From Pseudorhodoplanes sp. (GTDB taxonomy: Bacteria; Pseudomonadota; Alphaproteobacteria; Rhizobiales; Xanthobacteraceae): DNA of 64,000 nt. Below the pieces are notes generated by a model that saw nothing but the letters and a program-made list of their open reading frames with translations, searched no databases and was not told where the DNA came from. How positions within the stretch are numbered: position 1 is the first letter of the stretch; every line of letters begins with the position of its first letter. A program made the position numbers and the translations under genes. This document shows positions 16,536 through 44,694 of the stretch, one piece after another. Location of the stretch: positions 4,689,730 through 4,753,729 of the forward strand of contig JAVSMS010000001.1 of the NCBI GenBank assembly GCA_032027085.1, given 5' to 3'.

Positions 16536-16620
16536 GGCGCACCCGCCGGAATGAGCGTTAACCCGGAAAATCCAGCACCGGCTGGCCTAAAAACCGGGAG
16601 CGCTTCAAAAAGCTCCTGAA

Positions 16621-16658: not shown

Positions 16659-16806
16659 CAGCTCCGCGTTCGCCGGTTCACAGATTGGGAACGTCCTGCT
16701 CGGTTTCGCAGAGCACCACCTCCCGCCGATTAACAGACCGTGCTGTTGCGGCAGGAAGCTCGTCTTGATTGTTCCAAGAGGCTGGTGGCAAAGAGCTTGG
16801 TCATCG

Positions 16807-18933: not shown

Positions 18934-18945
18934 GGCCCAAACTCG

Positions 18946-19794: not shown

Positions 19795-19854
19795 CGTCGT
19801 CTCCCTGATTTTGCTGAAGTTAATGCGCATGACCTGCGTCATGCGACGCATTGG

Positions 19855-20922
19855 TTAGATCTCCGCACGCTCGTGCGCCTCGGCCCACACTCTTCGTGCG
19901 GCAGCAACACCGCCGTCGGCGGCGACGAGTGCCATGGCGCGGCGATGGTAGAGACCGATGTCATGTTCGTCGGTGAATCCGATGGCACCGTGAAGCTGGA
20001 TTGCCTCGTGCGTGACCCGCATGGCCGCGTTGGATACGTACGCCTTGGCGGCGGCGGCGGCCCTGGTCTGACGTGCGGTGCCCACCGCGCGGACCGCTTC
20101 GCGCACGAGGGAACGGCTCGAGGCGACATCGACATGGGCCGAAGCGGCGCGGTGCTGGACCGCCTGGAACGAGCCGATAGGCACGCCGAACTGCACGCGC
20201 GTCTTCAGATAGTCAACGGTGATCGCCAGGACACGGTCCATCAGGCCGACCAGAATGGCGGCGCGGCACAAGCGCGCGATGTCGGCGGCGTCGCGCAGGA
20301 CCGTTTCCGCGGCCGAGCCCCGTGCGAGCACGCGCAGGGCAGTGATATTGACGTCATCGAAGAGAAGATGGCCAGCGCTGCCGCCGTCGACCGTGCGGAC
20401 CGTCGCGATTGTGAAGCCGGCAACTCCCGGCGCGGCCGCAAGCAGCATCGATTCGTTGTCCAGTTGGGCGCCGATTAGGAAGGTATTGGCGAGATGCAGA
20501 TCTGCATGGGTGCCCGTGCGACCGCTGAGGCGATCGCACTGAACGGAAAGCTCTACCAAGGGCGCAATGAATGGAATGTCGTGGCCGGCCATGATGCGGT
20601 TGCGTAACGCGCGTGCTTCATCGCTGTTGAGAGCCGCAATGGCGGACACGGCGGCAAGAGTAAGCGGCACGGGCTCGGGCGCAAGGGCGGCGCCCATGGC
20701 CTCGAGCAGCTCGATAGTATCGGTCATCGTGAAACCGCAGCCGCCGTCCGCCTCCGGAACGAGCATGCCGAACCAGCCGAGCGCCGCCATCTCGTCCCAC
20801 ACGGCGCGGTCGAGGACCGGATGTTCACGCCGCTGACGCGCGCGACCTATGCCGCCAGCGTTTTCGAACAGCGCGCGCGCGCCATCGCCAACCAGACGCG
20901 CACTTTCATTGTGCTCAAGCAC
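19855..20922 (-). CDS. Acyl-CoA dehydrogenase, shorter subunit
   Basis: A 355-residue protein from GTG 20922, with GGGGAGGA just upstream. The longer frame to 21093 overlaps the preceding gene and is unlikely. It has the dehydrogenase fold: an N-terminal helical domain (WDEMAALGWFGMLVPEADGG), a degenerate middle barrel and a C-terminal domain (RVQFGVPIGSFQAVQHRAAS; EAIQLHGAIGFTDEHDIGLY). It overlaps the larger dehydrogenase gene by 8 bp. Such adjacent pairs often form heterotetrameric flavoenzymes that desaturate bulky acyl-CoA side chains. Confidence 0.9.
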   Translation of the reverse strand: MLEHNESARLVGDGARALFENAGGIGRARQRREHPVLDRAVWDEMAALGWFGMLVPEADGGCGFTMTDTIELLEAMGAALAPEPVPLTLAAVSAIAALNSDEARALRNRIMAGHDIPFIAPLVELSVQCDRLSGRTGTHADLHLANTFLIGAQLDNESMLLAAAPGVAGFTIATVRTVDGGSAGHLLFDDVNITALRVLARGSAAETVLRDAADIARLCRAAILVGLMDRVLAITVDYLKTRVQFGVPIGSFQAVQHRAASAHVDVASSRSLVREAVRAVGTARQTRAAAAAKAYVSNAAMRVTHEAIQLHGAIGFTDEHDIGLYHRRAMALVAADGGVAAARRVWAEAHERAEI

Positions 20923-22078
20923 GGGTTCCTCCCCGCGGCAACTGCAGGACGCGTGAGGCGATGAGCGAGCGCTGGATCTCATTGGTCCCGCCCAAGATCG
21001 ACAGCCGGCGCGCCTGCAGCGGCAGTCCACTGAAATCGACCTGACGTCCGTCGTAGGGGACGGAGTGCTCGACTGCGGCGAGCGGGCCGGCAAGCTCCTG
21101 CATCGCTTCGGTGATACGCTGCGTCACCTCGGTCCCGATGATCTTGATGAACGAGCTGTCGGCGCTCGCGACATTGCTGTCGTCAACGGTCTCCATCAGA
21201 TCTAGATAGGAGGCGGACACCGCCTCGGCCTCGATCTCCAACGCGGCGAGCCTGTCACGCACGCCGAGATCGCGATCGATACCGGTATAGGCGGCGAGCC
21301 GACGCAGGCGCCACAAGGCCTTGAGGGCAAAGCTTGGATTGGAGCCGCGCAGCCGTTCCTCGTTGAGGAGTTCGGTCGCCACCGCCCAGCCCTGGCCGAT
21401 ACCCAAGACGACATTCTCGATCGGTACGCGGACGTTGTCGAAGAAGATTTCGGCGAGCTCGTCTTCGCCCGCAATGGTCTTGATAGGGCGCCGGGTGATG
21501 CCCGGCGATGCCATGTCGATGAGGACGAACGTGATGGCGTTGCGACGCAGCTCAGGCGCACTGGTGCGCACTAGGGCAAACATCCAATGGGCGTAATGGC
21601 CCCAGGTGGTCCAGATCTTGGAGCCGTTGATGACGAGGTGATCGCCGTCGACGACCGCGCGCGTGCGCAAGCCGGCAAGATCGGAGCCAGCACCCGGCTC
21701 GGAATAGCCTTGGCACCAGATCACTTTGCCATCGAGGATCGGCGGCAGATGGCGACGCTTCTGATCCTCGCTGCCAAAGCGAATGAGGATAGGGCCGATA
21801 TGGTTGATGCCCTGCAGCGAGATCTCGGGGACGCCGGCACGGGCCTGTTCCTCATACAGAATCAGCTGCTGCACCGGCGTCAGTTCACTACCGCCATAGG
21901 CACGTGGCCAATGCGGAACGAGCCAGCCCTTTGCGTGCAGCCGACGGCACCAGTTCAGCATTCTTTCCGGATCGGGGCGTCCCGGCAGATCGCGCAGGGA
22001 GGGGTCAAGGTTCTGCGCCAGCCAGACGCGGGCATCCATGCGGAAGGCGTGGTCCGCGCCGGTTTCCTCTCGCAGCAT
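20915..22078 (-). CDS. Acyl-CoA dehydrogenase, longer subunit
   Basis: A 387-residue protein from ATG 22078, with AAAGAGGGA upstream. Typical motifs are all present: GWLVPHWPRAYGGSEL, the FAD/substrate segment GYSEPGAGSDLAGL and INGSKIWTTWGHYAHWM, and the C-terminal RLSILGGTNEIQRSLIASRV. It should oxidise an acyl-CoA to the enoyl-CoA, passing electrons to ETF. It is the first structural gene of the operon and lies 78 bases after gntR. That gap carries a 32-bp palindromic operator. Confidence 0.93.
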   Translation of the reverse strand: MLREETGADHAFRMDARVWLAQNLDPSLRDLPGRPDPERMLNWCRRLHAKGWLVPHWPRAYGGSELTPVQQLILYEEQARAGVPEISLQGINHIGPILIRFGSEDQKRRHLPPILDGKVIWCQGYSEPGAGSDLAGLRTRAVVDGDHLVINGSKIWTTWGHYAHWMFALVRTSAPELRRNAITFVLIDMASPGITRRPIKTIAGEDELAEIFFDNVRVPIENVVLGIGQGWAVATELLNEERLRGSNPSFALKALWRLRRLAAYTGIDRDLGVRDRLAALEIEAEAVSASYLDLMETVDDSNVASADSSFIKIIGTEVTQRITEAMQELAGPLAAVEHSVPYDGRQVDFSGLPLQARRLSILGGTNEIQRSLIASRVLQLPRGGTRA

Positions 22079-22095
22079 TCTTCCCTCTTTACGGA

Positions 22096-22127
22096 GCGAT
22101 ATTGCATCCAATTGGATACAATATCGC
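22096..22127. promoter_or_regulatory. 32-bp near-perfect palindrome, GntR operator for the dehydrogenase operon
   Basis: The arms GCGATATTG (22096-22104) and CAATATCGC (22119-22127) flank ATCCAATTGGAT (22106-22117). Only one base pair of the 32 bp breaks symmetry. The ATCCAATTGGAT core recurs upstream of gntR at 22891-22902. It lies 18 bases before the first dehydrogenase gene. Confidence 0.85.
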
Positions 22128-22155
22128 AACTCTTGCTGTTAATCTTGGACGGCGC

Positions 22156-22869
22156 TCATGCGCACATCAGCCGGACGAGGCGGTCCGGCGGGACCGCCTC
22201 GTTAATCTTTCCAAGGTTCTGGCGCGCCGTATAAGCGTGCTCGCGCATGGCCGCTTCGGCCCGCGCGCCCTCCCCCGCCTCGATCGCCTCCAAGATGGCG
22301 TGATGCTGGAAATGCAGGAAGCTCAGCAGGCGAAAGCCCTTGCCGATGGCTTTGGTGCGATTGAAAACCAACGAATGCGCCGAGGTGAAGGGGACCGCGT
22401 CGTTCAGCGTAAGCGCCCGCTTGAGCGGCTGGTTGTCAGTATTGTCGACGATGAGCGCATGGAACCGCGCGTTCATGTCAACATAGCGCTCGAAATCGGT
22501 CGCCACGTCGAACGTATCCTGGGCGAAAATCTCGTCACCCTCCTCCAGGCAGGCGCGCAGTTGGCGCGCGACGTCGCGCGGCAGGCCCTTCTCCGCGAGC
22601 AGCCGCGCAGCGAAGCCTTCCAGTAGACCGCGCACCTCGAAGGCGTCGCTGATCTGCCTTGGGGTGAACGTGGTGACTGTGTAGCCACCGGCCGGCCAGA
22701 CGGTCAGCAAGCCCTCACGCTCCAAGGCGCCGAACGCAACGCGCACCGGGGTACGCGAGACGCCCAACTTCTCGGCAACGGACAACTCGGTGATCCGTTC
22801 GCCCGCGCCGTATTCGCCGCGCAAAATCATGCGGCGAAGCTCGTGGATGACGCGGGATTGCTCTGACAT
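22156..22869 (-). CDS. GntR-family (FadR/FCD type) transcriptional regulator
   Basis: A 237-residue protein from ATG 22869, with AAGGAGGAG upstream. The N-terminal winged helix reads VIHELRRMILRGEYGAGERI, then LSVAEKLGVSRTPVRVAFGA. The C-terminal FCD helical effector domain (about 85-225) keeps the metal/ligand pattern: D..R at about 148, a central H and a late H in REHAYTAR. It is the first gene of the minus-strand cluster and is divergent from the TctC binding protein. Matching ATCCAATTGGAT palindromes lie before gntR and before the dehydrogenase operon, so autoregulation plus operon repression relieved by an acyl or aromatic ligand is likely. Confidence 0.92.
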   Translation of the reverse strand: MSEQSRVIHELRRMILRGEYGAGERITELSVAEKLGVSRTPVRVAFGALEREGLLTVWPAGGYTVTTFTPRQISDAFEVRGLLEGFAARLLAEKGLPRDVARQLRACLEEGDEIFAQDTFDVATDFERYVDMNARFHALIVDNTDNQPLKRALTLNDAVPFTSAHSLVFNRTKAIGKGFRLLSFLHFQHHAILEAIEAGEGARAEAAMREHAYTARQNLGKINEAVPPDRLVRLMCA

Positions 22870-22885
22870 CGATCTCCTCCTTGAC

Positions 22886-22908
22886 ATTGGATCCAATTGG
22901 ATACCAAA
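22886..22908. promoter_or_regulatory. GntR autoregulatory operator
   Basis: The same 12-bp core ATCCAATTGGAT (22891-22902) sits inside imperfect TTGG/CCAA flanks, 22 bases upstream of the gntR start and over its likely promoter. A half-site-like TATCCATTA lies near 22921, toward the divergent tctC gene. Confidence 0.8.
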
Positions 22909-23110
22909 TAGTGAAGTTAGTATCCATTAGCAAGTGGGATGATCAAGACAGCCATACGACCACGCCGCGGGCGATGCGCGGCCCTGGCGCCGCCCGCCCT
23001 GAATGAATCCGTTCACGAGGGTCGTGCGCGGGCAACGGGGCGACTGCAAAAAGCGGTCTCCCGTCTTTGCCAGGAGCGACACAAAACAAACAACTAGGGA
23101 GGAGGAAGAG

Positions 23111-24094
23111 ATGCTCGGGGATATGTCCAGGCGATCATGCCTTAGCGCGATGGTCGGTTTCGCATTGCTGCCGCGAACTCCGGCTTCGGCCCAGGCCTAT
23201 CCAAAAAAACCTATCCAGATCATCGTCCCATTTCCGGCCGGCGGCCCGACCGACGTGATTGCCCGGCGGGTTGCCGACAAACTGCAGCAGAGCCTGGGTA
23301 AGCCGATTATCGTTGATAATCGGCCGGGCGGTGCCACGATGATCGGTGCCAACGCCGTCATCAAGTCCGAGCCGGACGGCCACACGCTGCTGTGCGGCAC
23401 CACAAGTACCTTTGCAGTGGTGCCGAACCTCTACAAGAAGCGTGATTTCCATCCAAGAGCGACACTCACCCCGGTGATCTTGGCGGCCGAGACACCGACC
23501 GTCTGGGTGGTCAGCGGCAAGATCGAAGTCAATAGCGCTTCCGAATTCCTAGCTTATGCCAAGGCAAACACAGGGCAGCTCGGATTTGCCTCTGTTGGGA
23601 TCGGCACGACCCCCCATCTCCTGGGCGAACTCTTCAAGACGGAAGCCCAAATCGACCTTCAGCACATTCCGTACAAGGGCAGCGCTCCGGCCATGACCGA
23701 CATGATCGCCGGTCGCGTGTCAATGATGTTCGACCAGTTGGGATTCGTAGCGCCGTTCGTCAGGAGCGGGCAGGTGAAGGCGCTCGCCATCGTTGCTCCT
23801 AGGCGCTATGCCGAACTGCCCCATACGCCGACCATTGGAGAGGTTGGCTTCCCGTTGCTGGCAAAAACGATCTGGACTGCGTTCGCCGCGCCTGCCGGAA
23901 CGCCGCCCGAAATTGTCGCATTGCTCAATCGCGAGATCAACAGCGCGCTGCAGGCCGCGGACGTGAGGGCATTGTTGAAGCAGACAGGGACATTCGTGGT
24001 CGGCGGATCGGTCGAGCACTTGCGTGAGGTATGGAACAGCGACGAAAACTTCTGGCGCGACGCGGTAGCAAAGGCCAACGTCCAGCTCGAATGA
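23111..24094 (+). CDS. TctC/Bug-type periplasmic solute-binding protein
   Basis: A 327-residue protein from ATG 23111, with GGGAGGAGGAAGAG just upstream. It has a twin-Arg-like signal (MSRRSCLSAMVGFALLPRTP, cleavage near ASA-QA). The Bug fold reads PIQIIVPFPAGGPTDVIARR, then VDNRPGGATMIGANAVIKSE, PDGHTLLCGTTSTFAV, HIPYKGSAPAMTDMIAGRVS and FAAPAGTPPEIVALLNREIN. It captures an aromatic or aliphatic carboxylate. No TctA/TctB membrane genes are nearby, so it must use a transporter encoded elsewhere, as is common for Bug proteins. It is divergent from gntR and probably under the same control. Confidence 0.93.
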   Translation: MLGDMSRRSCLSAMVGFALLPRTPASAQAYPKKPIQIIVPFPAGGPTDVIARRVADKLQQSLGKPIIVDNRPGGATMIGANAVIKSEPDGHTLLCGTTSTFAVVPNLYKKRDFHPRATLTPVILAAETPTVWVVSGKIEVNSASEFLAYAKANTGQLGFASVGIGTTPHLLGELFKTEAQIDLQHIPYKGSAPAMTDMIAGRVSMMFDQLGFVAPFVRSGQVKALAIVAPRRYAELPHTPTIGEVGFPLLAKTIWTAFAAPAGTPPEIVALLNREINSALQAADVRALLKQTGTFVVGGSVEHLREVWNSDENFWRDAVAKANVQLE

Positions 24095-24189
24095 AACGGC
24101 GCCGCGGTTTCTGCCCGATGCGCCCTCGTCCATTCTGTCCGAACTGGACTGCACCGGGTTTCATTGACACTAAGTTAAGGTGTTTAATG

Positions 24190-24728
24190 GAATAGGAGGC
24201 CGCGCCGATCCGCCGCTATGAGTGCGACAAGCCTGGCGAGATGATCCACATCGACATCAAGAAGCTCGGCCGGTTCAACCGGATCGGCCATCGCATCACT
24301 GGCGACCGACAAGGCGTCGCAATGCCGGTGCGGGTTGGGAGTTCGTCCATGTCGCCATCGACGATCATTCGCGCGTTGCCTTCGCCAGGGTCATGCCGAG
24401 CGAGAAAAAGCGCAGCGCCATCATGTTCTCCAACGCTGCGCTCGCCTACTACGAAAGCCTCGGCATCAAGGTCGAGCGCGTCATGACCGACAACGGTGCC
24501 TGCTACAAGTCCTTCGCCTTCCGCAGAGCCTGCAAGCGGTTCGGGCTACGCCACATCAGAACCCGGCCCTGCACGCCGAAGACCAACGGCAAGGCCGTGC
24601 GCTTCATCCAGAGCAGCTTGCGCGAATGGGCCTACGCACAGGCCTATCGCAACTCACAGCAGCAAAAGGCCGAATTGCCGCGCTCGCTGCATCGATACAA
24701 CTGGGGCCCGGCGACTTCTGGACGGTAA
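24190..24728 (+). pseudogene. IS481-family transposase remnant
   Basis: Segments PGEMIHIDIKKLGRFNRIGH (first frame) and, after a frameshift near 24325, WEFVHVAIDDHSRVAFARVM, YYESLGIKVERVMTDNGACY, LRHIRTRPCTPKTNGKA and LREWAYAQAYRNSQQQKAEL match IS481 transposases. The 5' end is missing and the 3' end stops seven bases before the monooxygenase gene. It may have supplied that gene's promoter. Confidence 0.88.
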
Positions 24729-24735
24729 TGAGATT

Positions 24736-26367
24736 ATGGAACGTCGAATGTCCAATGCCCCACAGGTTATAGTCGTTGGTGCCGGCCCTGTAGGCCTGAC
24801 AATGGCCATTGATCTTGGTCGTAGGGGGATTCGGACACTTTTGATCGAGCAAAAGGCAGCGCCGCAATTCTTGCCAAAGATGGAGCGGTGCAATGCGCGG
24901 ACAATGGAGATGTACCGGCGCATTGGCGTTGCCGACCGCATTCGCGAGGTCGGCTTGCGTTCGGACATTCCGATGGATGTCTATGTGATCCTTTCGATGA
25001 TCGAAAGGCCGCTGCTGCGCCTGCCCTATCCATCGGTCGACGAATCCCGTCGAGAACTCGCAAGCAGTAACAACGGCACCCTTTCTTGCGAACCATATCA
25101 GCTTATCTCACAATATACGCTCGAGCCGCTTCTGAAATCGATTACGGAATCCTTTCCAAGCGTAGACGTCCGGTATGGATGCGAGTTACTTGCTCTGGAG
25201 CAGAACGCGGAAGGAGTCATTGCGACTGTACGATCTGGCCAAGGTCAGACCGAAAATGTTCGCGCTCAATATCTCGTCGGTTGTGACGGCGGTGCCAGCC
25301 GCGTTCGAAAACAACTCGGCATCAAATTGCGTGGCGAAGGCAATCTGTTGGAATTGCGGCAGGCGCTTTACTACTGCGAGGATCTTTTTGATCGCATCCC
25401 GCTTGGACAGGGCCCTGGCCGGGGCCGCCATTATCACGTGGCTGACGACCGAGCGAGCTTCCTGATCATGCAGGATTCGACCAAGCACTTCACGTTGCAC
25501 GCTGTGGTCGACAGTGACGTGGCAATGAAAGCGCAATTCGAAGCGGTTATCGGCGCTCCGGTTAAATATGAAATGTTATCCTGCAATCCATGGCGACAAA
25601 ATCTGCTGCTTGCTGATCGCTACTGCGACGGTCGCGTATTTTTGGCTGGCGATGCCGCGCATCTTGTTATCCCGACCGGTGGCCTCGGGATGAACACCGG
25701 CGTCGGCGACGCCCTCGACTTATCGTGGAAGCTAGCCGCTGCGCTCGACGGTTGGGCCGGCGAAAATATTCTCCGTTCGTACGAAATCGAGCGTCGCCTG
25801 GTCGGTGAGAACAATGTCGGTGCTTCCCGTTATGCATCGCTCGGCCGGCGCAAGTGGCGATCACAGTATCGGCCTAATATTCGCGATAATACCCTGGATG
25901 GTGAGGCGACGCGCAAGTCCCTGGCGGCGGTTGCTGATATCGAGCAGCGCAAGACCAACGAAATGATCGGAGCGGAACTTGGCTATCGATATGTCAGTTC
26001 GCCGATCATCGATGACATTCCCGGAGGTCCAGAACACCGTTTCCGTGAGTACCATCCGACCACTTGGCCGGGTGCGCGCCTGCCGCACGTGTGGCTAAAC
26101 GACGGTGCACCGATTCAGGACCGTATCCCGGACGATGGCTTTACGTTGATCCGCCTCGGCGGCAGCGGAGCCGACACCTCGAAACTCATCGAGGCGTTGC
26201 AGAACTACGGTGCCCCGGCAAGGGCTATCGACATACCCGATCCCGTCGCCCGCGATGTCTATGGTCACGACCTGGTGCTGGTGCGGCCTGACATGCATAT
26301 CGTCTGGCGCGGCAACAAGCTGCATGACGATCCCGCAGCCCTTGCTGCAAGAGCCACGGGGCATTGA
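24736..26367 (+). CDS. FAD-dependent aromatic hydroxylase (PHBH-fold, PheA/TfdB/MhpA type)
   Basis: About 543 residues from ATG 24736; ATG 24748 is an alternative and neither has a strong ribosome binding site. It has the dinucleotide motif VIVVGAGPVGLTMAIDLGRR, the mid-protein YLVGCDGGASRVRKQLGI and the FAD-ribityl motif VFLAGDAAHLVIPTGGLGMN. A C-terminal thioredoxin-like region follows. Such enzymes hydroxylate a phenolic ring using NAD(P)H and O2. Coming after an acid-activation and side-chain shortening operon and before a decarboxylase-type amidohydrolase, it probably acts on the ring product. Sixty-seven bases separate it from the next gene. Confidence 0.9.
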   Translation: MERRMSNAPQVIVVGAGPVGLTMAIDLGRRGIRTLLIEQKAAPQFLPKMERCNARTMEMYRRIGVADRIREVGLRSDIPMDVYVILSMIERPLLRLPYPSVDESRRELASSNNGTLSCEPYQLISQYTLEPLLKSITESFPSVDVRYGCELLALEQNAEGVIATVRSGQGQTENVRAQYLVGCDGGASRVRKQLGIKLRGEGNLLELRQALYYCEDLFDRIPLGQGPGRGRHYHVADDRASFLIMQDSTKHFTLHAVVDSDVAMKAQFEAVIGAPVKYEMLSCNPWRQNLLLADRYCDGRVFLAGDAAHLVIPTGGLGMNTGVGDALDLSWKLAAALDGWAGENILRSYEIERRLVGENNVGASRYASLGRRKWRSQYRPNIRDNTLDGEATRKSLAAVADIEQRKTNEMIGAELGYRYVSSPIIDDIPGGPEHRFREYHPTTWPGARLPHVWLNDGAPIQDRIPDDGFTLIRLGGSGADTSKLIEALQNYGAPARAIDIPDPVARDVYGHDLVLVRPDMHIVWRGNKLHDDPAALAARATGH

Positions 26368-26434
26368 CCAATTGGTGCCAGGCAAATCGACCTTCCGCGA
26401 TCTTCCCAAAACGCCCAGTACAGGAGGCAAACTC

Positions 26435-27448
26435 TTGCGTTACATCGATGCTTTCAATCACTTTTTCCCAGAGGCACTTTGGGAAAAAATGCTTGTTTCC
26501 GACGGAGCCGCGCGCGACATCGGAAAGCGCATGCGCGGAATCCCCGCAATCTACGACCTTGATACCCGCTTCAAGGTCATGGACCAGTTCTCCGACTACA
26601 CGCAGGTTATCTCTCTTGGCATGCCGCCGCTCGAGGCGTTGGGCACACCTGAGCAGGTCGAGGAATTCGCCAGGCTCGGGAACGACGGAATGGCTGAACT
26701 GGTCGCGAAGTATCCGGACCGCTTCGACGGCTTCCTTGCATCGCTCCCGATGAACTCCCCCGGCGCGGCGCGCGAACTCGAGCGTGCGTTCAAGGAGCTC
26801 GGAGCCAATGGCGTTCAACTCCACAGCAACATAAACGGCGCTCCGCTGGATGAGCCGCAATTCCGCCCTGTATTCGAAGTTGCCGCAAAGTACGGCCGGC
26901 CGGTGATGCTGCATCCGTCTCGCGGTGCGTCGATGCCGGACTACGCGACGGAGAAGAAATCGAAATACGAGATCTGGTGGACATTCGGCTGGCCATACGA
27001 AACCAGTGCGGCGTTGGCCCGCCTTGTATTCTCCGGCATCATGGATGAGCTTCCGAATCTCAAGGTGCTTGCTCATCACCTTGGAGCGATGATTCCGTAT
27101 TTCGAGGGCCGGGTCGGCCCCGGCTGGGATCAACTCGGGAACCGGACGTCCGATGAGGACTACAAGCCCGTTCTCCAGCGGCTGAAAAAGCGTCCGTTCG
27201 ACTATTTCAAGGATTTCTACGCCGATACCGCGACCTTTGGCTCGCGCCCTGCGACGGTGTGTGGACTGGAATTCTTCGGCGAAGACAGGGTGTTGTTTGC
27301 ATCGGACAGCCCGTTCGATCCGGAAAAGGGTCCTGGCTATATCCGCGACACAATCAAGGTCCTTGAATCCATCGAAATGTCAAACGAGGTCCGCGAGAAG
27401 ATCTCTTTTCGCAATGCGCAGTTGTTATTCGGTTTGAAGCCGGCCTGA
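26435..27448 (+). CDS. Amidohydrolase-2 (ACMSD/gamma-resorcylate decarboxylase-like)
   Basis: A 337-residue TIM-barrel protein starting at TTG 26435, chosen because AGGAGG lies seven bases before it and upstream sequence is not family-like. Motifs: YIDAFNHFFP at the N-terminus, where the usual first metal H-x-H reads F-N-H; VMLHPSRGA; LKVLAHHLGAMIPYFEGR; and the catalytic-Asp region VLFASDSPFDP. The family carries out non-oxidative decarboxylation or hydrolysis of aromatic-derived acids. It is cotranscribed with the hydroxylase. The missing first His, which I believe also occurs in a subfamily, could alter metal binding. Confidence 0.88.
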   Translation: MRYIDAFNHFFPEALWEKMLVSDGAARDIGKRMRGIPAIYDLDTRFKVMDQFSDYTQVISLGMPPLEALGTPEQVEEFARLGNDGMAELVAKYPDRFDGFLASLPMNSPGAARELERAFKELGANGVQLHSNINGAPLDEPQFRPVFEVAAKYGRPVMLHPSRGASMPDYATEKKSKYEIWWTFGWPYETSAALARLVFSGIMDELPNLKVLAHHLGAMIPYFEGRVGPGWDQLGNRTSDEDYKPVLQRLKKRPFDYFKDFYADTATFGSRPATVCGLEFFGEDRVLFASDSPFDPEKGPGYIRDTIKVLESIEMSNEVREKISFRNAQLLFGLKPA

Positions 27449-27477
27449 GCAGTGGCCGGCAGCGAAGGAGAGGACAA

Positions 27478-28618: not shown

Positions 28619-28890
28619 GACCGCTCCGCCTCCTGCGCCGCCCAGTGCGCAACCTTCGCAACCAGCGACCAGACGCTGGTCCGGCGATCGTGCGCAAAGA
28701 TCTTGCCTTCGCAAGACCAAGCTTCAGTGCCGGCCACGGAGTTACGACCTTCGGAGACGCGGACCGCGTAGTCCGACATGTCGGCTAGGTTGCTGATGTT
28801 GCCGATCTCAGCGCGCGCGATCTCGCGCGAACCGCCCTCCCAGCCACCCGGCACCAACTCAACTTTGACCCGCAGCATCGCCAACTCCAC
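28615..28890 (-). CDS. Small hypothetical protein
   Basis: 91 residues from GTG 28890, or 87 from ATG 28878. It has a beta-rich N-terminal half (VKVELVPGGWEGGSREIARA) and a C-terminal helix (SLVAKVAHWAAQEAERS). Family unknown. It overlaps its neighbours at both ends, the downstream one through TTGA, so it is translationally coupled to the metallophosphoesterase. Confidence 0.6.
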   Translation of the reverse strand: MELAMLRVKVELVPGGWEGGSREIARAEIGNISNLADMSDYAVRVSEGRNSVAGTEAWSCEGKIFAHDRRTSVWSLVAKVAHWAAQEAERS

Positions 28891-29239
28891 TTGTCACATC
28901 GATTACTTGATCATTGTCGTCTACGCGCTTGAACGGTGCCCGTTCACCGAGCCGATAAAACCGGCCCGCTGTGCGCGCCCAGCCGTTAGCTAAATCGATC
29001 GCGGCCAACGGACTTGTGGTAACCCAGCCGTCCGGCAGACGCGGGTGACCTGTGACGACGCCGACGAGATTCAAAAGGTCGCTGCCGGGATAAAAATCGA
29101 ACATCCAGCCGGAAAGCACTGGCGCCTGCGCGAGATCGTCCGCGGACGGCGTCCAGCCGGACGCGAACTTCTGTAGATCGTTCAACAGACGCTCGCGACG
29201 GGCGACGACTTCGGCGGGGGTGTACGGAACTGCGATCAT
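28859..29239 (-). CDS. Hypothetical protein, tandem paralogue A
   Basis: 126 residues from ATG 29239, which overlaps the preceding stop as ATGA. The core pattern W-x-P-S-x-(D/E)-D-L, LSGWMFDFYPGSDLLNLVG, GHP and a C-terminal AxDxANGWARTAGRFYRLGE recurs in the next upstream gene. The pair therefore arose by tandem duplication. Function unknown; the family seems confined to accessory DNA of this kind. Confidence 0.65.
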   Translation of the reverse strand: MIAVPYTPAEVVARRERLLNDLQKFASGWTPSADDLAQAPVLSGWMFDFYPGSDLLNLVGVVTGHPRLPDGWVTTSPLAAIDLANGWARTAGRFYRLGERAPFKRVDDNDQVIDVTSGVGDAAGQS

Positions 29240-29520
29240 GACGTCACACTTTCGATCAGGCGGTAGTATCGGTTCACTGTGCGCGCCCATCCGGCCGCCT
29301 CGTCGATTGCGACCAGCGCGCTGGTGTAAATTGCTCTGTCGCCAAAGGTCGGATGACCTCGCACGTCGCCCCACAGGCACAGGGCGGCGCGGCTGCCCGG
29401 TCGGAAACCAAACGACCACCCGCGGATCACCGGCACGTCGACGAGATCCTCCGTGCTTGGCCGCCACCCGCGCCGGAGTCGCGCGATCTCCTTTTCAAGG
29501 TCGCCAGGGGCGCCAGTCAT
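29236..29520 (-). CDS. Hypothetical protein, tandem paralogue B
   Basis: 94 residues from ATG 29520, which overlaps the previous stop as ATGA. It shares with its neighbour the motifs PSTEDLVDVPVIRGWSFGF, a central GHP and the C-terminal AIDEAAGWARTVNRYYRLIE. No catalytic motif. The chain of 4-bp overlaps across four genes implies stoichiometric production. Confidence 0.65.
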   Translation of the reverse strand: MTGAPGDLEKEIARLRRGWRPSTEDLVDVPVIRGWSFGFRPGSRAALCLWGDVRGHPTFGDRAIYTSALVAIDEAAGWARTVNRYYRLIESVTS

Positions 29521-29771
29521 GATTCCGTCTCCGGATCCCGCACCTCGAGCGGCACCGGCGCGCACTCGAGCCTGTCCTCGGCCAGCGTGTCGAGGACCCA
29601 TTCCAGCTGCAGTGCCCGCAGCCGGGCTCGATTATGCGGCTCCTCAAGCGCCCGCAGGTCGGCCGCCTGAGCCGGCCCGCTGAACGGAGCCGTCCGGGTA
29701 CCGCACCGGCGGATCCAAGCTGGACGCAGGGCGGCGAATCTGGTGGGGTGGCATTTGTTGGACATTGTCAT
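29517..29771 (-). CDS. Small hypothetical protein, first gene of the minus-strand accessory operon
   Basis: 84 residues from ATG 29771; an ATG at 29765 is also possible. It is Arg/Pro-rich, with a short helix (LRALEEPHNRARLRALQLEW) and an acidic C-terminus. Family unknown. Its start overlaps the inverted repeat at 29761-29786 shared with the divergent ribbon-helix-helix gene. Confidence 0.5.
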   Translation of the reverse strand: MTMSNKCHPTRFAALRPAWIRRCGTRTAPFSGPAQAADLRALEEPHNRARLRALQLEWVLDTLAEDRLECAPVPLEVRDPETES

Positions 29772-29786
29772 AATGGGCACAATGTC
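29761..29786. promoter_or_regulatory. Inverted repeat between divergent genes
   Basis: GACATTGT (29761-29768) and ACAATGTC (29779-29786) form perfect 8-bp arms with a 10-bp spacer. It lies over the divergent starts of the accessory operon and the ribbon-helix-helix gene. Such spacing suits two dimers of an autoregulating ribbon-helix-helix protein. Confidence 0.65.
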
Positions 29787-29823
29787 AGACAACGGGACCA
29801 CATACAAGCAAGGCCTGGTTAGA

Positions 29824-30165
29824 ATGGTTAAAAAACGAAAAGGGCCAATGCTGCGGAATGTGCCGCGTCAATTTAACGAGAACGAGGAGAACGACGACCG
29901 CATGGCCTACCTGCGCGGCGAGATCGGTCCGCCGCGTCAAAAGGCCGGGGACCAGAAAACCGAGCGGATCGGGCTGCGGCTCCATAGAGATCTGGATTTT
30001 GAAGCACGAATGGCCGCCAGAAACGAGGGCGTCAGCTTTTCAAGCTGGATCGTCAAAGCCATGGCGCGAGCGGTTAATGAGCGCGCGGACCAAGATCTGC
30101 TCGACAATTTCGGTCGATACAAAGACTGGGTTGTCAACCCACCGATGCCTCCACGCAAACGATAG
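29824..30165 (+). CDS. Ribbon-helix-helix domain protein
   Basis: 113 residues from ATG 29824; upstream ATGs at 29782 and 29773 are in frame but overlap the operator. After a basic, disordered N-terminus comes ERIGLRLHRDLDFEARMAAR and SFSSWIVKAMARAVNE, the strand-helix-helix pattern of MetJ/Arc-type DNA-binding proteins with the S-x-S-x-W-I helix start. Likely roles are autorepressor, copy-control or partition-type DNA-binding protein. The phased palindrome array starts 141 bp downstream and is a possible target. Confidence 0.7.
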   Translation: MVKKRKGPMLRNVPRQFNENEENDDRMAYLRGEIGPPRQKAGDQKTERIGLRLHRDLDFEARMAARNEGVSFSSWIVKAMARAVNERADQDLLDNFGRYKDWVVNPPMPPRKR

Positions 30166-30521
30166 GGGGAAGGGCAGTTAACTCGCCGTCACTTCCACGC
30201 GCAGGTTGAGATAGGTTGCGGGCAACCTGATTTAATTTGCACGCGCGCCACGTCACGGCGCGGCGCGTGCAAACTGGCGATCAACTCCAAAATTGTTTCA
30301 CGCAGAATGCTTCGAATCTCGAAGCATTATCGCGCGTCCGCGGGCGAAAAATGTTTCGAATCTCGAATCATTTATGCCGTGATGCGCAACAAAATTACTT
30401 TGAATCTCGAAGCATTTTCGTGCGCGAAGCGCTGGGATAAAGGCTTTTTAAAACGGCTGGGAGAAAATGTTTCGAATCTCGAATCATTTTGCTCTGGGGT
30501 GAGTGACGTTGCCCCCAGGTT

Positions 30522-31448
30522 TTATCCAAGACTGAGTTCGCTTCTGGAACTTTGATTGCCCTGTGGGGCGGTGTGAGCGACGGGAGCTGGCGCGGAGCCA
30601 TTGGCGGAGCGCAGCGCCAGATCCCGGCGCGGGTGGAAAATGGCGGCGAACTCGGACGGCGTTTTCCACCCGAGCTGGGAATGCGGGCGCGTGCCATTGT
30701 AATCCGCCCGCCAGCAAGCGAGGGCAATTCGGGTCTGCGCGAGCGACGTGAACAGCGTCTCGTTCAAAAGCTCATCCCTCAGGCGGCCATTAAAGCTCTC
30801 GATGAAGGCGTTCTGCATGGGCTTGCCCGGCGCGATATAGTGCCATTCGACCTGGGTTTGCTCCGCCCATGCGAGGATGGCGTTGCTGGTGAGTTCGCTG
30901 CCATTGTCACTGACGATCATCCCGGGCCTGCTGCGCTCGGTTATCAGCCGATCGAGTTCGCGCGCCACGCGGGCGCCCGAGAGCGAGCTATCCGCCACCA
31001 GCGCCAGGCATTCGCGCGTGCAGTCATCAACGACGGTGAGGATGCGGAAGCGGCGGCCGTCAGTCAGCTGATCAGACACGAAGTCCAGCGACCAACGCGC
31101 ATTGGGCGCCACCGGGATCATCATCGGCGCCCTGGTCCCGATCGCCCGCTTGCGCCCGCCACGACGGCGGACAGCAAGCCTTTCCTCCCGGTAGAGCCGG
31201 AACAGCTTTTTGTGGTTCACCACGAAGCCCTCCCGCTTGAGCAGAACATGCAGGCGCCGATAGCCGAAGCGCCGGCGTTCCTGCGCGATCGCCCTCATGC
31301 GCGCGCGCAGACGGCCGTCATCGGGCCGCGTTGAAGCGTATCGAATGGTCATGCGGCAGGAGCCGATGGTTTTACACGCCCGCCGTTCGCTCATCCCGTA
31401 GGCCTCCCTGAGATGCGCGACAGCTGTCCGCTTGGCCGCGGGCGTCAC
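30522..31448 (-). CDS. IS3-family transposase OrfB (copy 2)
   Basis: 308 residues from GTG 31448, with a product identical to the OrfB encoded at 4095-5021. All three DDE residues are present ([23 protein letters not shown]). It overlaps orfA by GTGA. Confidence 0.93.
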
Positions 31449-31711
31449 CACTTCTTTCCCAGAAGATCCTTCAGGGCCACGTTGTCCAGCATGGCATCCG
31501 CCAGCAACCGCTTCAGGCGGCTGTTCTCGTCCTCCAGGCTCTTCAGCCGCTTGGCCTCCGACACGTCCATGCCGCCGAACCTGGCTTTCCATTTGTAAAT
31601 GCTGGCATCGCTGACCCCGTGCTTGCGGCACAGATCCGCAACCGAGACGCCGGCCTCGTTCTCCTTCAATATCCCGATGATCTGTTCTTCCGAAAAACGG
31701 CTGCGCTTCAT
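31445..31711 (-). CDS. IS3-family transposase OrfA (copy 2)
   Basis: 88 residues from ATG 31711, identical to the OrfA encoded at 3832-4098, with the same HTH and leucine-zipper-like helix. Intact, so this IS copy should be mobile. Confidence 0.93.
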
Positions 31712-32060
31712 GCTCCGGTCCTCAGCTTGGCCCAGAGCGAACTTCAAACTGGATTAAGCCCACGGGGCAAGGTCATGAGCAACAAAATTACTTCGAATCT
31801 CGAATCATTTTTCTCGCCGCGCATCACCGAAATGATTCGAGATTCGAAGCATCGCACGCTCTAACGCTCAACAAAAATGCTTCGAGCTTCGAAACATCTT
31901 GGTGCTGTTTGGTGCTGTTACTGTTGGCGATCACAAACACCCGATCCACAAAAAATTTCGACCACACGACTTGACAGTTGCATGACCGCACCGAATTTTA
32001 GTCGGTAAGAATAAGAAGAAGAGCGCGATCAGCGTCGGATCGAAATCAGGACAGGATCAA

Positions 32061-32384
32061 GTGGGTTCAGCCGCCACGAAATCGGTAATCGTTGACGCGC
32101 ATGCACAGCCCGAGCACGCGCGCATGGGCGATTTCGATGCAAAATACGAGGCGGCGCGCAAGAAAAAGCAGATCAATCGGCGGAAGGCGAAGGCACAGCG
32201 CGAGGAACACAAGCGTATCGCGCGATACGAGCCGGTCGATCAGGCTAAGTGGAATGCGCTGGCGTGGCGCCACGTCAAAGGCGACCTTCTGTCGAAGGAT
32301 GAACGCGCGTATTTCGACGGCGGCACCGAGCGAACGCGATCCTGGCTTGGCGCCAGAATGGCACTGCATCGCACCGGGTATACC
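32061..32384 (+). CDS. Basic hypothetical protein, 3' end replaced by IS debris
   Basis: The GTG 32061 frame follows AGGACAGGATCAA and encodes a highly charged protein: residues 20-60 are a Lys/Arg/Glu-rich helix (KYEAARKKKQINRRKAKAQR). Around base 32385 the sequence changes to an IS3 remnant in another frame, so the open frame to 32543 is a chimera. The original C-terminus is lost. The helix resembles nucleic-acid-binding coiled coils; function unknown. Confidence 0.45.
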
Positions 32385-32600
32385 GATACAGAATGGGCTT
32401 CGTCGAGAGATTCAATGGCCGCCCGCGCGACGAATGCCCGAACGAGCATTTCACCAAACTCAACGAGGTGCGCCAGATCTCGAAAGCATGGAGGATCGAC
32501 ACCAACCAACCGCACACGAGCTCAACAGGCTCTCGCCAACTAAGTTCGCAGCACGCCCCCAAGGGGGCAAAACTGGAACAACTTCTCCTTTTATGAACCA
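32385..32600 (+). pseudogene. IS3-family OrfB C-terminal scrap
   Basis: MGFVERFNGRPRDECPNEHF, then LNEVRQISKAWRID and, in a second frame, LNRLSPTKFAARPQ match the catalytic-Glu region and C-terminus of IS3 transposases. It lies between two blocks of the palindrome array and interrupts their phasing. Confidence 0.75.
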
Positions 32601-33249
32601 GGTGCAAGGGAGCAAACCACACGGGGTCACTGGTTATCGGAGCTGTCTGCCTGGCAAAAATGCTTCGAATTTCGAATCATCTTCAGGTGACTACGAAACT
32701 AAAATTACTTCAGATCTCGAAACAATTGTTTCTAGTCTCGAAGCATTTCCTAAACAGGCGCAATAAAATTAGCGCGAGTTTACGACCTGCTCCTGATCGA
32801 AAACGCGACATTAAAGGCTTTTCACCAGTCGGCAGGATGAATTGTTTCGAAACTCGAATCATTTCGTCGGAGACTGCGAAATAAACTTACTTTGAAATTT
32901 GAAACAAATGGTTCGAAACTCGAATCATTTTCGCGGACGGCCAAACACAAATTACTTCTAGATTCGAAGCAATTTAGGTGTGCAAGGCGCGACCGGCGAC
33001 TCGGTCGCTGTTGCTCACGCCTGAGCTCGTTGCAAAATTTTTTTGTGTGCTCACCCGTTCACGTGGTGACCGCTTACCCACAAGAGCTTGTGGCCATCGC
33101 CCTTCGTCTCGTTATTCACGGTGTTCAGAACTATTCAAAACGCCAATCATTTTTTCTGAATGCGCGATCACTAAATGCGTTGATTTCTGGTTCCTACGAT
33201 GGTGAATTGGCTTGAAACTCAAAACAATTATCCCTCGAATTTCAAAGAT

Positions 33250-33277
33250 GTCGTCAAACAAGATCTAGTTTGACGAC
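33250..33277. promoter_or_regulatory. Perfect inverted repeat upstream of the replicase gene
   Basis: GTCGTCAAAC (33250-33259) and GTTTGACGAC (33268-33277) are exact complements around an 8-bp centre that includes AGATCT. It ends 62 bases before the replicase ATG. Candidate repressor operator, or a stem in the rep leader RNA. Confidence 0.7.
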
Positions 33278-33339
33278 GCACCGATCGCGCTCACGCGCAC
33301 GGTATTGACGCTTGCGACGCGTCGCACAATCTTCGTCGC

Positions 33340-34980
33340 ATGACTGACATTTTTTTTGCGCGCGACATAACGACCGAGCAGCTTGCAGAGACCCACTGCA
33401 TTGCGAAGACGAGGGCCGCAGATGCAATCTGGTTCGCGCCGGGCCAGGACGACATTGATTTTTCTCGCGCGCCGGCGTGCGAGCGTGATTTTGCGTCGAT
33501 ATGGGACCTGTTCAAGAATTATCTACCGAGTGAATGTCCGGACTACGCGAAATCACGCGCAAATGCGCAGCGCCAGCTCCGACGGCGCTCGCGCAAATCG
33601 CTTCAGCGCTCTCACGCAGAGCGCCTCGCCGCTGGCGACGAAGAGGGCGCAGCGAAAATCAGAGACGAGATTGAGCGTGTGCAACCGTACATCGATAGCG
33701 CCAACTATGCGCGCAATGTGCAGCTACAGGTGGACCGACGCCGACGCAACGAGGGCTACATTTGGCTCGGAGGTGATTTTGGCGGACTGGGTTTTGTTCC
33801 AAAGTTTTGGGAGTTCGGCGACAGGTCTCGCGTCAACGGCGCCCACGTGCTTGCCCGATTCGAGGTGCTGATCCCCGCGGCTGGCCGTGGAATTTTTATC
33901 GGTCAAGGTAAGGCGGGTGTAGTAAAAGCTTTGACCAAACGGCAAGCGCTCTACTCGGCATACATCACCACGTCGCAGAAAGTCATCGGCTATATCAGGA
34001 TTGATATCGACCGGACATTCCCATCCTGGTCATTTCTTAATAGCAGCCTCATCGATCTGTATGATCGCGGTGAAATCCCTCTTCGTCCACATCTCGGCGT
34101 CGCGAAACGAACCGAGGATGGCAAGGTGGTCCATCCGCAGCTGATTTTTCTGCTCCCTTATCACGACCAGGTACGTCGTGATGGCCGCTGCAGGCCTGGC
34201 GCAATGCAACTTCTCTCGGCGTGCGAGAATGGACTGATCCGCGCGCTTGAGCCGCTGGGTAGTGATCCTGGCGGCCGCCACAATAAGTCGAAAGTGAAGA
34301 ACCCGTTCTGCCCGTTCATGATTGTTGGGATTTTCAACCAAAATGAATTCCTCGGCCTGCGCGATATCGCCGGGGGACTTGCTGATTGTTCGCCGCTGGA
34401 TCGCGGGTTCGAGCAAGCCTGGAACGCCCGCAAACACGGCGTGGAGCAGCATGAATCGAATCAGGTGTTCGTGGTCACCCGTCGACTCGCATGGGCCGCT
34501 TTGGGCGAATTGGCGTCGCTTGGCGCCCCGCTTTATGCAGAGCTCGTCGATGACCGCGGTAAGATGGCGGCTTGGGTGGTCGAGCGGTTCAGTGCCTATA
34601 TCGAGACATTGTTTGACCAAGAAAAAGCCGGCCGCATCCGCGCGATTGTTAAAGCGGTCGCCGCTGGCATTGCCCGACACTGGAAGCCGGATCAAACCAA
34701 AACGCCGCCGAACCGCGGTGCAATGAGCGACGTCATTGATCAGCGGTGGCCGTTGAGCAGGCGCCAGCATGAATCCGCGAAGTGGACGAATAGCAAACGG
34801 TCCGGCAAGGTCGAGGAGCGGATGCTCGACGCGATGGCGCGCTTGGCCGATGCTGGCCGCGACATTACGCCAAGCGCCGTTGTCAAGGCTGGGGGCGGCC
34901 CGAAAAGCACGGTGCACAAACATTTTTGCCGGGTCTTGCTGATCCGGCAGCGCATAGTTTCAGGCTGCGACCAAGGCTGA
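33340..34980 (+). CDS. Plasmid replication initiator (ColE2-type replicase family)
   Basis: A 546-residue protein. The central region, VVHPQLIFLLPYHDQVRRDG, then QLLSACENGLIRALEPLGSD and VKNPFCPFMIVG, follows the replicase-domain pattern of ColE2-type Rep proteins (H-P-x-L-x-x-x-L..., E-x-G-L, K-N-P). A C-terminal helix-turn-helix (ITPSAVVKAGGGPKSTVHKH) fits origin binding. The first 180 residues are extra, with a basic coiled segment near 75-110. No ribosome binding site is obvious before ATG 33340; the start is chosen for its position after the inverted repeat. Together with the palindrome array it makes a plasmid-like replication module now inside the accessory region. Confidence 0.72.
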   Translation: MTDIFFARDITTEQLAETHCIAKTRAADAIWFAPGQDDIDFSRAPACERDFASIWDLFKNYLPSECPDYAKSRANAQRQLRRRSRKSLQRSHAERLAAGDEEGAAKIRDEIERVQPYIDSANYARNVQLQVDRRRRNEGYIWLGGDFGGLGFVPKFWEFGDRSRVNGAHVLARFEVLIPAAGRGIFIGQGKAGVVKALTKRQALYSAYITTSQKVIGYIRIDIDRTFPSWSFLNSSLIDLYDRGEIPLRPHLGVAKRTEDGKVVHPQLIFLLPYHDQVRRDGRCRPGAMQLLSACENGLIRALEPLGSDPGGRHNKSKVKNPFCPFMIVGIFNQNEFLGLRDIAGGLADCSPLDRGFEQAWNARKHGVEQHESNQVFVVTRRLAWAALGELASLGAPLYAELVDDRGKMAAWVVERFSAYIETLFDQEKAGRIRAIVKAVAAGIARHWKPDQTKTPPNRGAMSDVIDQRWPLSRRQHESAKWTNSKRSGKVEERMLDAMARLADAGRDITPSAVVKAGGGPKSTVHKHFCRVLLIRQRIVSGCDQG

Positions 34981-35048: not shown

Positions 35049-35640
35049 ATGGGTCTAATCCGGCCGGAAACGGTGCAATCAGCCGTCATCATTTGTCAGG
35101 CAAGACATTGCGCAGGATTTGCCGTTAGACCTCTCTATGGCCCGTTTCCGGCCGCCTTGATCGTACATCCGGAAAAATACAATCATCTCTCAGGCCGAAC
35201 TTCGCGGCAGGGCTGTAAAGCAGCTATTCAGCTATTCGGGCTCATCATCGACGAGACTTAGTCTACAACGGTGGTAGGAAAAAATGTTATCCTCTTAATC
35301 ATGACCGGAGTGAATTGGGTCTGCTCCATAAACCGGTATTTTGCAGAGCCTCCCTCATCGATGACGTGGACCGGATAGGCGAGACATTGCGCGGGATTGC
35401 CGTTAGTGTCATCCGGAAAATACAATCATCTTTCAAGCCGAACTTCGCGGCAGAGCTGCAAAGCGGCTATTCGGGCATCTCATCGATGACGGGACTCAGG
35501 CTACGACGGTGGTAGGAAAAAATGTTATCCTCTTAATCATGACCGGAGTGAATTGGGTCTGCTCCATAAACCGGCATTTTGTAGAGCCTTCCTCATCGAT
35601 GACGTGGACCGGAAATCGGAAACACTATCATGGCCTAGCT
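35049..35640 (+). repeat. Tandem repeat, about 237-bp unit, 2.5 decaying copies
   Basis: 35284-35520 is followed by a partial copy (35521 to about 35617) that is almost identical from AATGTTATCCTCTTAATCAT to GATGACGTGGACCGGA. A more diverged copy precedes it (35049-35283, with an insertion of about 40 bp). Each copy contains TCATCGATGACG-type and CCGGAAAATACAATCATC words. It has no coding continuity. Possibly a replication- or partition-associated repeat. Confidence 0.75.
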
Positions 35641-36042
35641 CAGCTCTTCGGTATCACCGGTGACAAAGCCAGTTGCGGATCGTCCTCCTCAATGACGGTG
35701 CCCAACGCCGTCCAGGGCGGTGGATCATGGGGCGGGAGGAAATTGGTCCCCGCTCCATGCGCCGGTAACCCCTGTAAATCGGCTCGATCGTAGAAACAAT
35801 GGACAGCGACACCACCCGTGTCAGACCGGTCAACTGCTTGACGGGTTCAGTCCCTGCTCCCTGGCGGCTATCCAGTAGTCTTAATTCTAATCGTATGCTG
35901 CTGATCCGATTCGGCCGCCTGGGGCGTTGTCGGTGCTGATGTTGCCGGGGTGAGAGCTGATCTACTAGATCACTCACCGAGCATTTGTCGCAGCCCGTAA
36001 TGCAAGTTGCGACTTGCAGGCCGGTCAACGACATTGACTGCC
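35641..36042. other. Non-coding stretch with two palindromes
   Basis: No gene is seen. GGTGAG..TGATCTA / TAGATCA..CTCACC forms an interrupted palindrome (35949-35978), and TGCAAGT (36001-36007) is inverted at 36012-36018. The block CCCGTAAT...ACTTGCAGGCC (35997-36022) resembles the DNA upstream of the gene at 41065 (40984-41008), suggesting a shared promoter or operator. Confidence 0.5.
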
Positions 36043-36393
36043 ATGACAACCGGAAGCTACAGGACGCGCGGTGCTAACGCGTCAGCATTGCTGGCGCCTT
36101 GTCCGTTACCGTTGACGCGTGATGAGCGCCGTGCGCGGACGCGTGAGCGCACGCGGGCGTGGCGGGAGGCAAACAACCAGCTTGGCCGGCCGGAAACCGC
36201 TATCGTCGGAAAGGCCCTCCTCGTTGCCGTTGTCACCTCGCGATTTGATGAGCTCGGCACACAAACCGTACTGATCGTTGACCGTGCCATAAACCTGCTT
36301 TTAGCGGCCGGCTACGATCGTGTGCATATTGAGCAGGTCTTCCGCCGAGCGCGACGGAATTATTGTAGACCGGACACCGAAGGCAAGCTTTAA
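36043..36393 (+). CDS. Hypothetical basic protein
   Basis: 116 residues from ATG 36043. An Arg-rich helix (RDERRARTRERTRAWREANN) is followed by a helical domain (VGKALLVAVVTSRFDELGTQ, then RAINLLLAAGYDRVHIEQVF). It is probably DNA- or RNA-associated; no family is recognised. It is preceded by the palindromes described at 35949-36018. Integrase debris begins downstream. Confidence 0.5.
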   Translation: MTTGSYRTRGANASALLAPCPLPLTRDERRARTRERTRAWREANNQLGRPETAIVGKALLVAVVTSRFDELGTQTVLIVDRAINLLLAAGYDRVHIEQVFRRARRNYCRPDTEGKL

Positions 36394-36489
36394 AACAGTT
36401 GCTGATGGTGCAGCCAGGCTGTTGTCAGTCATCAGGCTCGTTGTCGACGCGTACCGGCACCTGCCCGGTAATCTGCTCAACGATTATTG

Positions 36490-36760
36490 TGACATTACTC
36501 GCCCGCGCGCGAGATGCAGGCCTTTTGGGAGGGCCTGCAGGCGAAGGCCACACGCACATCCACGATTTCCGGCACACCCTCGCTTCGCTGCTTGGTATTG
36601 GGCGGCATAAGGCTGCCGATGGTCGTCCCCTGCATGGCCACACGCAAAACGCAGACGACGCTTCGCTATGCCCACCTTTATAATGATCCACCCCGCGCAG
36701 GTCCGGGTCGAATCGGCAAGGGTCTGGCCGAATCTCGCACTGATGACCGATACGGCCAAG
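36490..36760 (+). pseudogene. Tyrosine recombinase (integrase) C-terminal remnant
   Basis: HIHDFRHTLASLLGIGRHKA carries the conserved H-x-x-R box. After a frameshift, KTQTTLRYAHLYNDPPRAG carries the catalytic Tyr with its usual context (T-x-x-R-Y-A-H-L). The N-terminal and central domains are absent. This is likely the dead integrase of an element that entered the tRNA-Lys region. Confidence 0.75.
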
Positions 36761-44673: not shown

Positions 44674-44694
44674 ATCGTGCAAAGAGTCCGCGTA

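Follow-up and report, generated by a model that had tools for sequence, protein, structure and literature searches.

What could be the purpose of an array of palindromes that lies directly in front of a replication gene in a contig of bacterial genome size? This question is raised by a stretch of 64,000 nucleotides from Pseudorhodoplanes sp. (contig JAVSMS010000001.1, positions 4,689,730 to 4,753,729), hereafter referred to as the window, in whose coordinates all of its features are given. Between 30306 and 33230, it harbors 14 strong copies of a 23-bp imperfect palindrome and 2 weak ones, located between rhh, a gene for a ribbon-helix-helix (RHH) protein, and rep, which encodes a replication initiator. 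Judged by sequence comparison, the palindromes are part of a conserved rhh–site–rep module in related loci. Given the shorter versions found in related bacteria, the array looks like a replicon control region rather than a chance pattern. The more specific role favored here, i. e. a cis-acting copy-control or incompatibility region of an integrated, partly decayed replicon with the RHH protein as binder, is proposed with about as much confidence as doubt.

The palindrome array and its spacing

An earlier note on this DNA had described 14–16 palindromic 23-bp repeats next to a plasmid-type replicase and had set them apart, as palindromes, from classical iterons, which are direct repeats. The count of 14 strong and 2 weak palindromic copies agrees with this description. 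The strong copies form three blocks to which no strand is assigned: block 1 (30306–30488) with four palindromes at 30306, 30350, 30394 and 30466, block 2 (31787–31898) with three at 31787, 31831 and 31876, and block 3 (32659–32973) with seven at 32659, 32704, 32725, 32841, 32886, 32907 and 32951. Their core is TTCGA-N3-TCGAA (TTCGANNNTCGAA), which occurs with at most one mismatch in 12 of the 14 strong copies. Each base of TTCGA and TCGAA is retained in 11–14 of the 14, while the centre is freer. Leave-one-out matrix scores of the strong copies range from 18 to 45 bits, and the two weak, degenerate copies at 33127 and 33204 (33127–33230, likewise without strand) reach 14.5 and 21.6 bits with a 27-base matrix.

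Within 29500–34000, 12 cores with at most one mismatch were observed, whereas 500 dinucleotide shuffles averaged 0.36 and never exceeded 3. Upon searching the entire genome (a single contig of 4,968,360 bases) with the 23-base pattern at up to three mismatches, 24 strand-matches were obtained, all of them within the array, and a reversed control pattern gave none. A dispersal of the palindrome throughout the 4.97-Mb genome was hence rejected. Seven other genomes of the genus contained merely scattered 3-mismatch matches to the same pattern. The full window consensus matched once in each of four contigs of the genome_contigs collection, which is about the chance level by a hand estimate, and gave two single matches in viral_contigs.

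The array is interrupted twice by foreign-looking DNA. The first stretch is an IS3-family insertion sequence (IS) of 1272 bp (30504–31775, reverse strand) with terminal repeats (ends TGAC[G/C]TTGCCCC) and a 4-bp TGAG target duplication; once it is subtracted, the copies at 30466 and 31787 are 45 bp apart, the same distance as elsewhere in the array. Because the genome contains three identical copies of this IS, its insertion into the array is probably recent. A second copy in the window (3768–5040) matches that of the array at 100% identity. The other stretch (31900–32655, no strand) comprises a degenerate IS3-type relic at approximately 32345–32620, recognized by inverted matches to the intact IS, as well as an open reading frame (ORF) at 32061–32543 that belongs to no known family. 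The earlier view that the gaps represent inserted DNA is thus correct for the first large gap and is in line with the inserted-looking DNA in the 783-bp gap, but for the 72- and 116-bp gaps no insertion was demonstrated.

The start-to-start spacings read 44, 44, 72, (IS), 44, 45, (insert), 45, 21, 116, 45, 21 and 44 bp, just as the earlier note had described them (distances of 44–45 or 21–23 bp, apart from 72, 116 and larger gaps). Its interpretation of this regularity as helical phasing, and of the phasing as a sign of cooperative binding on one face of the DNA, did not hold. At 10.5 bp per turn, steps of 44 and 45 bp correspond to 4.19 and 4.29 turns, and the resultant lengths of the positions in blocks 1–3 are 0.68, 0.38 and 0.17, so that the seven copies of the longest block (32659–32951) share no common face. 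Considered individually, the spacings have similar phases (resultant 0.69, mean offset 55 degrees), yet they repeat the same 44/45 step and are not independent. Since the block phases scatter and the single spacings repeat one step, cooperative one-face binding is not implied. The regularity would be explained equally well if a longer unit, spacer included, had been duplicated; similar stretches of 32–39 nt including spacer recur in the array (families D2, D3 and D6).

A separate 28-bp inverted repeat with 10-bp perfect arms and an 8-bp centre (33250–33277, no strand) is found between the array and rep, immediately 5′ of the latter. Its sequence is unlike that of the array palindromes, and it is a possible operator or hairpin.

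The rhh–site–rep module in related loci

The initiator gene rep (33340–34980, forward strand) encodes a 546-aa protein that, as far as its sequence can tell, is a diverged relative of PF03090/ColE2-type initiators. The window Rep matched no informative family in Pfam (no family at E≤1), PHROGs or NCBIfam. Among the Reps of 11 relatives (loci are designated by L numbers), those of L016 (7e-9) and L015 (2.7e-6) score above the curated cut-off of PF03090, L021 (1.2e-5) just under it and L023 weakly, with no match for the other seven. The family alignment retains the D-x-D (residues 222–224 of the window Rep) and KNP (320–322) motifs known from ColE2-type/PF03090 replicases. The former is part of IRIDID, in which D222 and D224 align with the relatives; a passage of PMC5862659 gives motif I of the archaeo-eukaryotic primases as hhhDhD/E and places the ColE2-type Rep among these enzymes. 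A further likeness is a C-terminal helix-turn-helix, predicted to be TetR-like from the family profile: with 14 sequences, the window Rep included, this profile matched TetR-family DNA-binding domains in the PDB (2rek, 1.1e-6). Differences from ColE2-type replicases are the missing Pfam match of the window Rep and the multi-copy palindrome array. An AlphaFold model from a 3-sequence alignment was too poor (mean pLDDT 47) and was not used.

Relatives of this Rep, at approximately 23–33% identity, are rare. At the level of the family, 12 of 391 genomes carry one and at that of the order 7 of 397 (both counts include the own genome); at class level, only the own genome does (1 of 385). Among 72,556 plasmid records three were found, or six with the Rep of L055 or L021 as query. 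In genome_contigs, a search for close relatives of the window Rep yielded none, and phage records contained no relative either. In viral_contigs, the single window Rep found nothing and the family alignment two loci. By raw identity, the nearest Reps are those of L014 and L050, neither of which has an rhh. In the Rep tree, the window Rep groups weakly (0.80) with the L021–L025 clade, a placement from which nothing is drawn.

The product of the gene rhh (29743–30165, forward strand; the true start is possibly the ATG at 29824) matched Pfam HicB at 0.03, below the cut-off, and an Arc-like phrog at 0.0015. Of seven homologues scanned, those of L020 and L068 exceed the cut-off of Pfam RHH_1. In ten relatives (L020–L025, L067–L069 and L071), an rhh homologue lies directly 5′ of rep on the same strand. 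The hmmsearch values range from 3e-82 to 4e-16, with four of the ten being among the five sequences of the model and the other six scoring 7e-32 to 4e-16. In L018, the rhh model gave a weak match (8e-4) some 5 kb away from rep, which was left out of the count, and tblastn with the window RHH against plasmids found nothing.

Between rhh and rep, these 11 loci contain 21 core sites with at most one mismatch, i. e. 12 in the window and nine in six of the ten relatives (L020, L021, L022, L023, L024 and L069, with one to three each). In addition, diverged palindromes of the same layout were seen by eye, two in L068 and one in L067. A matrix built from relatives only (seven distinct sites of five relatives, picked by hand, leaving out that of L024, which is cut at the interval end, and that of L072) ranks copies of the window array as the top 11 hits in the 64 kb and as 12 of the top 14. 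Hence, the motif that the earlier note had proposed to look for near rep in other replicons is present there as the core, with one to three copies in relatives and seven in L055, but genome_contigs contained no array of the full window consensus.

The region upstream of rep was further compared across 26 relative loci. This set omits weak matches (L009–L013, L025), viral loci (L061–L062), duplicates of L020 and L068 (L066 and L073) and short copies of loci represented elsewhere at greater length (L001–L008, L036–L042), and two genomes contributed two loci each (L052/L053 and L069/L072). Within 500 bp upstream of rep, seven loci contained ten cores with at most one mismatch to TTCGANNNTCGAA; the distal flanks of the 26 loci predict 0.57 (Poisson 6e-10). 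This probability, like the others given here, is indicative only, as the motif came from the window and had already been recognized in relatives when the tests were made, and the loci are related. TTCGA ranked first among 60 palindromes with permuted arms, with seven loci versus three for the next and a mean of 0.22 for the others. The site was present in six of nine loci with an rhh homologue and in one of 17 without (L072). When L064, a near copy of L063, is left out, the core occurs upstream of rep in 6 of 10 loci with rhh versus 1 of 16 without (Fisher 0.005).

Candidate readers and roles of the array

Which protein reads the site may be approached through loci that combine similar rhh genes with different Reps. 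Between L020 and L024, rhh is 86% and Rep 20% identical, the site agrees at 20 of 21 positions, and a DNA block of 75.7% identity spans rhh and the site and ends about 160 bp into rep. For L021 and L069, the corresponding values are 45%, 19% and 21 of 21, without DNA similarity at 1e-5. In the Rep tree, the partners of either pair fall in different clades. Because the site is nearly unchanged in two locus pairs whose Reps are merely 19–20% identical, the RHH protein is favored as the putative binder of the palindromes.

Several observations weigh against this assignment and the control function derived from it, beginning with the indicative nature of the above probabilities. A partial Mantel test over nine loci, with hand-picked sites that include variants of L067 and L068 chosen by eye, gave a weak, non-significant correlation of the site with rhh identity (−0.24, p 0.15) and 0.02 (p 0.53) for the site with Rep. 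In four relatives with rhh (L025, L067, L068 and L071), the rhh–rep interval lacks a core with up to one mismatch. Binding sites in front of its own gene, as expected for a CopG-type repressor, were absent for rhh: in the 11 loci, neither the region up to 600 bp upstream of rhh nor the gene itself contains a core at this threshold. Conversely, L072 features the site and the small ORF described below, though no rhh was found in 1.4 kb upstream, and L014 has one site just inside the annotated rep start (26.6 bits) without a window-type rhh. In L055 (G736, 8334–8558), seven core sites separate rep from a NikA-like RHH gene, which the rhh model did not detect and which is followed by a relaxase gene. 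They begin about 175 bp after rep with spacings of 26, 26, 97, 21, 21 and 21 bp, and an eighth is located inside the NikA-like RHH gene.

In the favored reading, the replicon module would have the order rhh – palindromic sites – rep – small ORF, and the palindromes would be bound by the neighboring RHH protein. The one to three rhh–rep sites of the relatives are placed like an operator before rep, which suggests control of rep. In the window, the site would have been amplified together with its spacer to approximately 14–16 copies. The RHH protein may then repress rep or block initiation when seated on its sites, and the many copies could act as an incompatibility or copy-control locus through titration and pairing. 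Since the array sits in a 4.97-Mb contig and carries an IS, the region may no longer be working today. A related arrangement is known from the Rep_2 plasmid pMV158, whose CopG is described in a passage of PMC5703833 as an RHH copy-number repressor encoded upstream of repB. CopG acts at the copG promoter. In the window and ten relatives, rep is likewise preceded by an RHH gene in the same orientation. Unlike in pMV158, window-type sites lie between rhh and rep with none found upstream of rhh, there are 14–16 copies in the window, and the Rep is of a different family.

Alternatively, the array may be an origin in which Rep, through its TetR-like C-terminal helix-turn-helix, contacts the palindromes as a dimer, nucleates initiation and handcuffs origins. 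TetR-family DNA-binding domains bind palindromes, and the match of the Rep family profile to such domains, the position of sites upstream of rep in relatives and the sites of L072, L014 and L055 without a window-type rhh would all be explained. Three TTCGTGACTCACGAA-like palindromes upstream of the related rep of L050 (8423, 8831 and 8914) and, weakly, a DnaA-box-like TTACCCACA with one mismatch at 33074 point in the same direction. Iterons are direct repeats bound by Rep; the array resembles iteron-type origins in having many copies of one site beside rep, but its copies are palindromic and seem to track rhh. We regard a Rep-bound origin as rather doubtful, given the near-constant site in front of Reps of 19–20% identity. 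Moreover, a Pfam search with the window Rep by itself gave no match to a helix-turn-helix family, loci whose Reps are about 50% identical to that of L055 (L085–L087) are without such an array, and the Reps closest by raw identity (L014, L050, L051 and L017–L019) have no core within 500 bp upstream of the ORF start.

A partition centromere, coated by the RHH protein and segregating the replicon either without a dedicated ParA, in a StbA-like fashion, or with the AAA+ ATPase that adjoins rhh in relatives, appears unlikely. By layout, the nearest known array is sopC (parS_F) of F, for which a passage of PMC9178275 gives twelve repeats of 43 bp that each contain an inverted repeat of 16 bp; the palindrome-bearing repeats and their spacing close to 44–45 bp are similar, but the neighbor of the window array is an RHH gene without a ParA-type gene nearby. 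As the nearest PF13614 ParA-type match is approximately 440 kb off (4.282 Mb versus 4.720 Mb for the array), a ParABS system was set aside. The divergent AAA+ gene (PF00004) beside rhh in all six relatives examined (L020–L025) would offer a substitute, yet it is not of the ParA type, similar genes also occur on the plasmids L014 and L065 close to reps without rhh, and no counterpart was found in the window. A comparable case is StbA of R388, a stability protein. According to a passage of PMC3098194, it binds the stbDRs in cis and confers stability without need for StbB; the stbDRs, however, comprise two sets of five direct repeats of 9 bp, unlike the window array. The presence of only one to three core sites in the six site-bearing relatives also argues against a centromere. 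The same low numbers would fit a relic or selfish expansion, i. e. a duplicated single operator whose function has been lost since integration. The two inserted-looking stretches and the location of the module in a single 4.97-Mb contig agree with this idea, but the palindrome arms are well kept in 14 copies and both rhh and rep are open frames, which makes it very improbable. The earlier note had suggested that the array could be an origin or incompatibility region or else a partition centromere, in either case of an undescribed replicon; this is broadly right in that the palindromes belong to a conserved module with a diverged relative of PF03090-type initiators.

Returning to the copy-control reading, a wider generalization can be offered tentatively and with more doubt than confidence: the module might represent an undescribed replicon-control system of integrative elements (probably alphaproteobacterial, judging by the named plasmid relatives), in which the RHH protein and an amplifiable palindrome (TTCGA-N3-TCGAA) are kept while the initiator gene is exchanged, a single site serving as operator and the amplified form as an incompatibility or segregation array. 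Among the papers listed by literature searches on such replicons, palindromic repeats or this replicase type, none described the motif or the module in its title or opening abstract. The order rhh – palindromes – rep provides a testable definition of a replication-control module that is barely visible to profile libraries, and the combination of similar rhh and site with different Reps is a natural contrast that could decide on the reader of the site. If the array is an incompatibility or partition locus, it would illustrate how a one-site operator becomes a multi-site locus by duplication.

Integration context and neighboring DNA

The window resembles an integrated element from which parts have been lost, with neither its ends nor an integrase found. 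A tRNA-Lys(CTT) gene is located at 46890–46965 on the reverse strand, and L020 and L024 lie near the same tRNA. The gene next to it (47430–47960) is common to both (3e-39 and 4e-41), and the rep module is 3′ of tRNA-Lys in all three loci, with opposite orientation in the window. A metallophosphoesterase gene (44677–45687) is 34–38% identical to ones near tRNA-Lys in L020 and L024. It also shows about 39% identity to a gene beside the AAA+ gene on the Microvirga terrae plasmid pR24_2 (L014), which carries a related rep. As no repeat of the tRNA-Lys 3′ end (at least 15 nt) was found elsewhere in the window, the ends of the element are undefined. In L017–L019, an integrase gene lies beside rep and a tRNA gene beside the integrase. 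An integrase remnant suspected by eye at 36399–36683 of the window was supported neither by Pfam nor by tblastn with the integrases of four relatives. The rep region of L050 is near tRNA-Gln and an ORF that resembles an integrase by eye.

Downstream of rep, a small ORF (36007–36393, forward strand) has counterparts at the same place in L021, L022, L025 and L072 (8e-9 to 6e-7) and weak ones in L069 and L071. On the other side of the module, beyond rhh and on the opposite strand, lies a DUF6634 gene (28859–29467, reverse strand); similar sequence occurs beyond the AAA+ gene in L021 (8e-13) and L025 (2e-7). Further to the left, 7900–27450 contains matches to UbiD, flavoprotein, amidohydrolase, IclR and LysR families, suggesting a catabolic region.

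Repeats of other kinds were noticed as well. Two direct copies of about 200 bases, approximately 240 bp apart and 90–91% identical in their aligned parts, lie downstream of rep at 35174–35624. Acidiphilium plasmids with a related rep have repeat arrays downstream of rep, with units of about 35 bp in L016 (13670–15030) and about 125 bp in L063 (9194–11258) and L064 (8039–10800). The viral contig L035 carries TTCGAA-type palindromes (8468, 10164 and 12670; eight window-matrix hits above 11 bits), possibly an unrelated operator set. L063 and L064 additionally feature a CRISPR-like array with 61-bp spacing by annotated type I-E cas genes.

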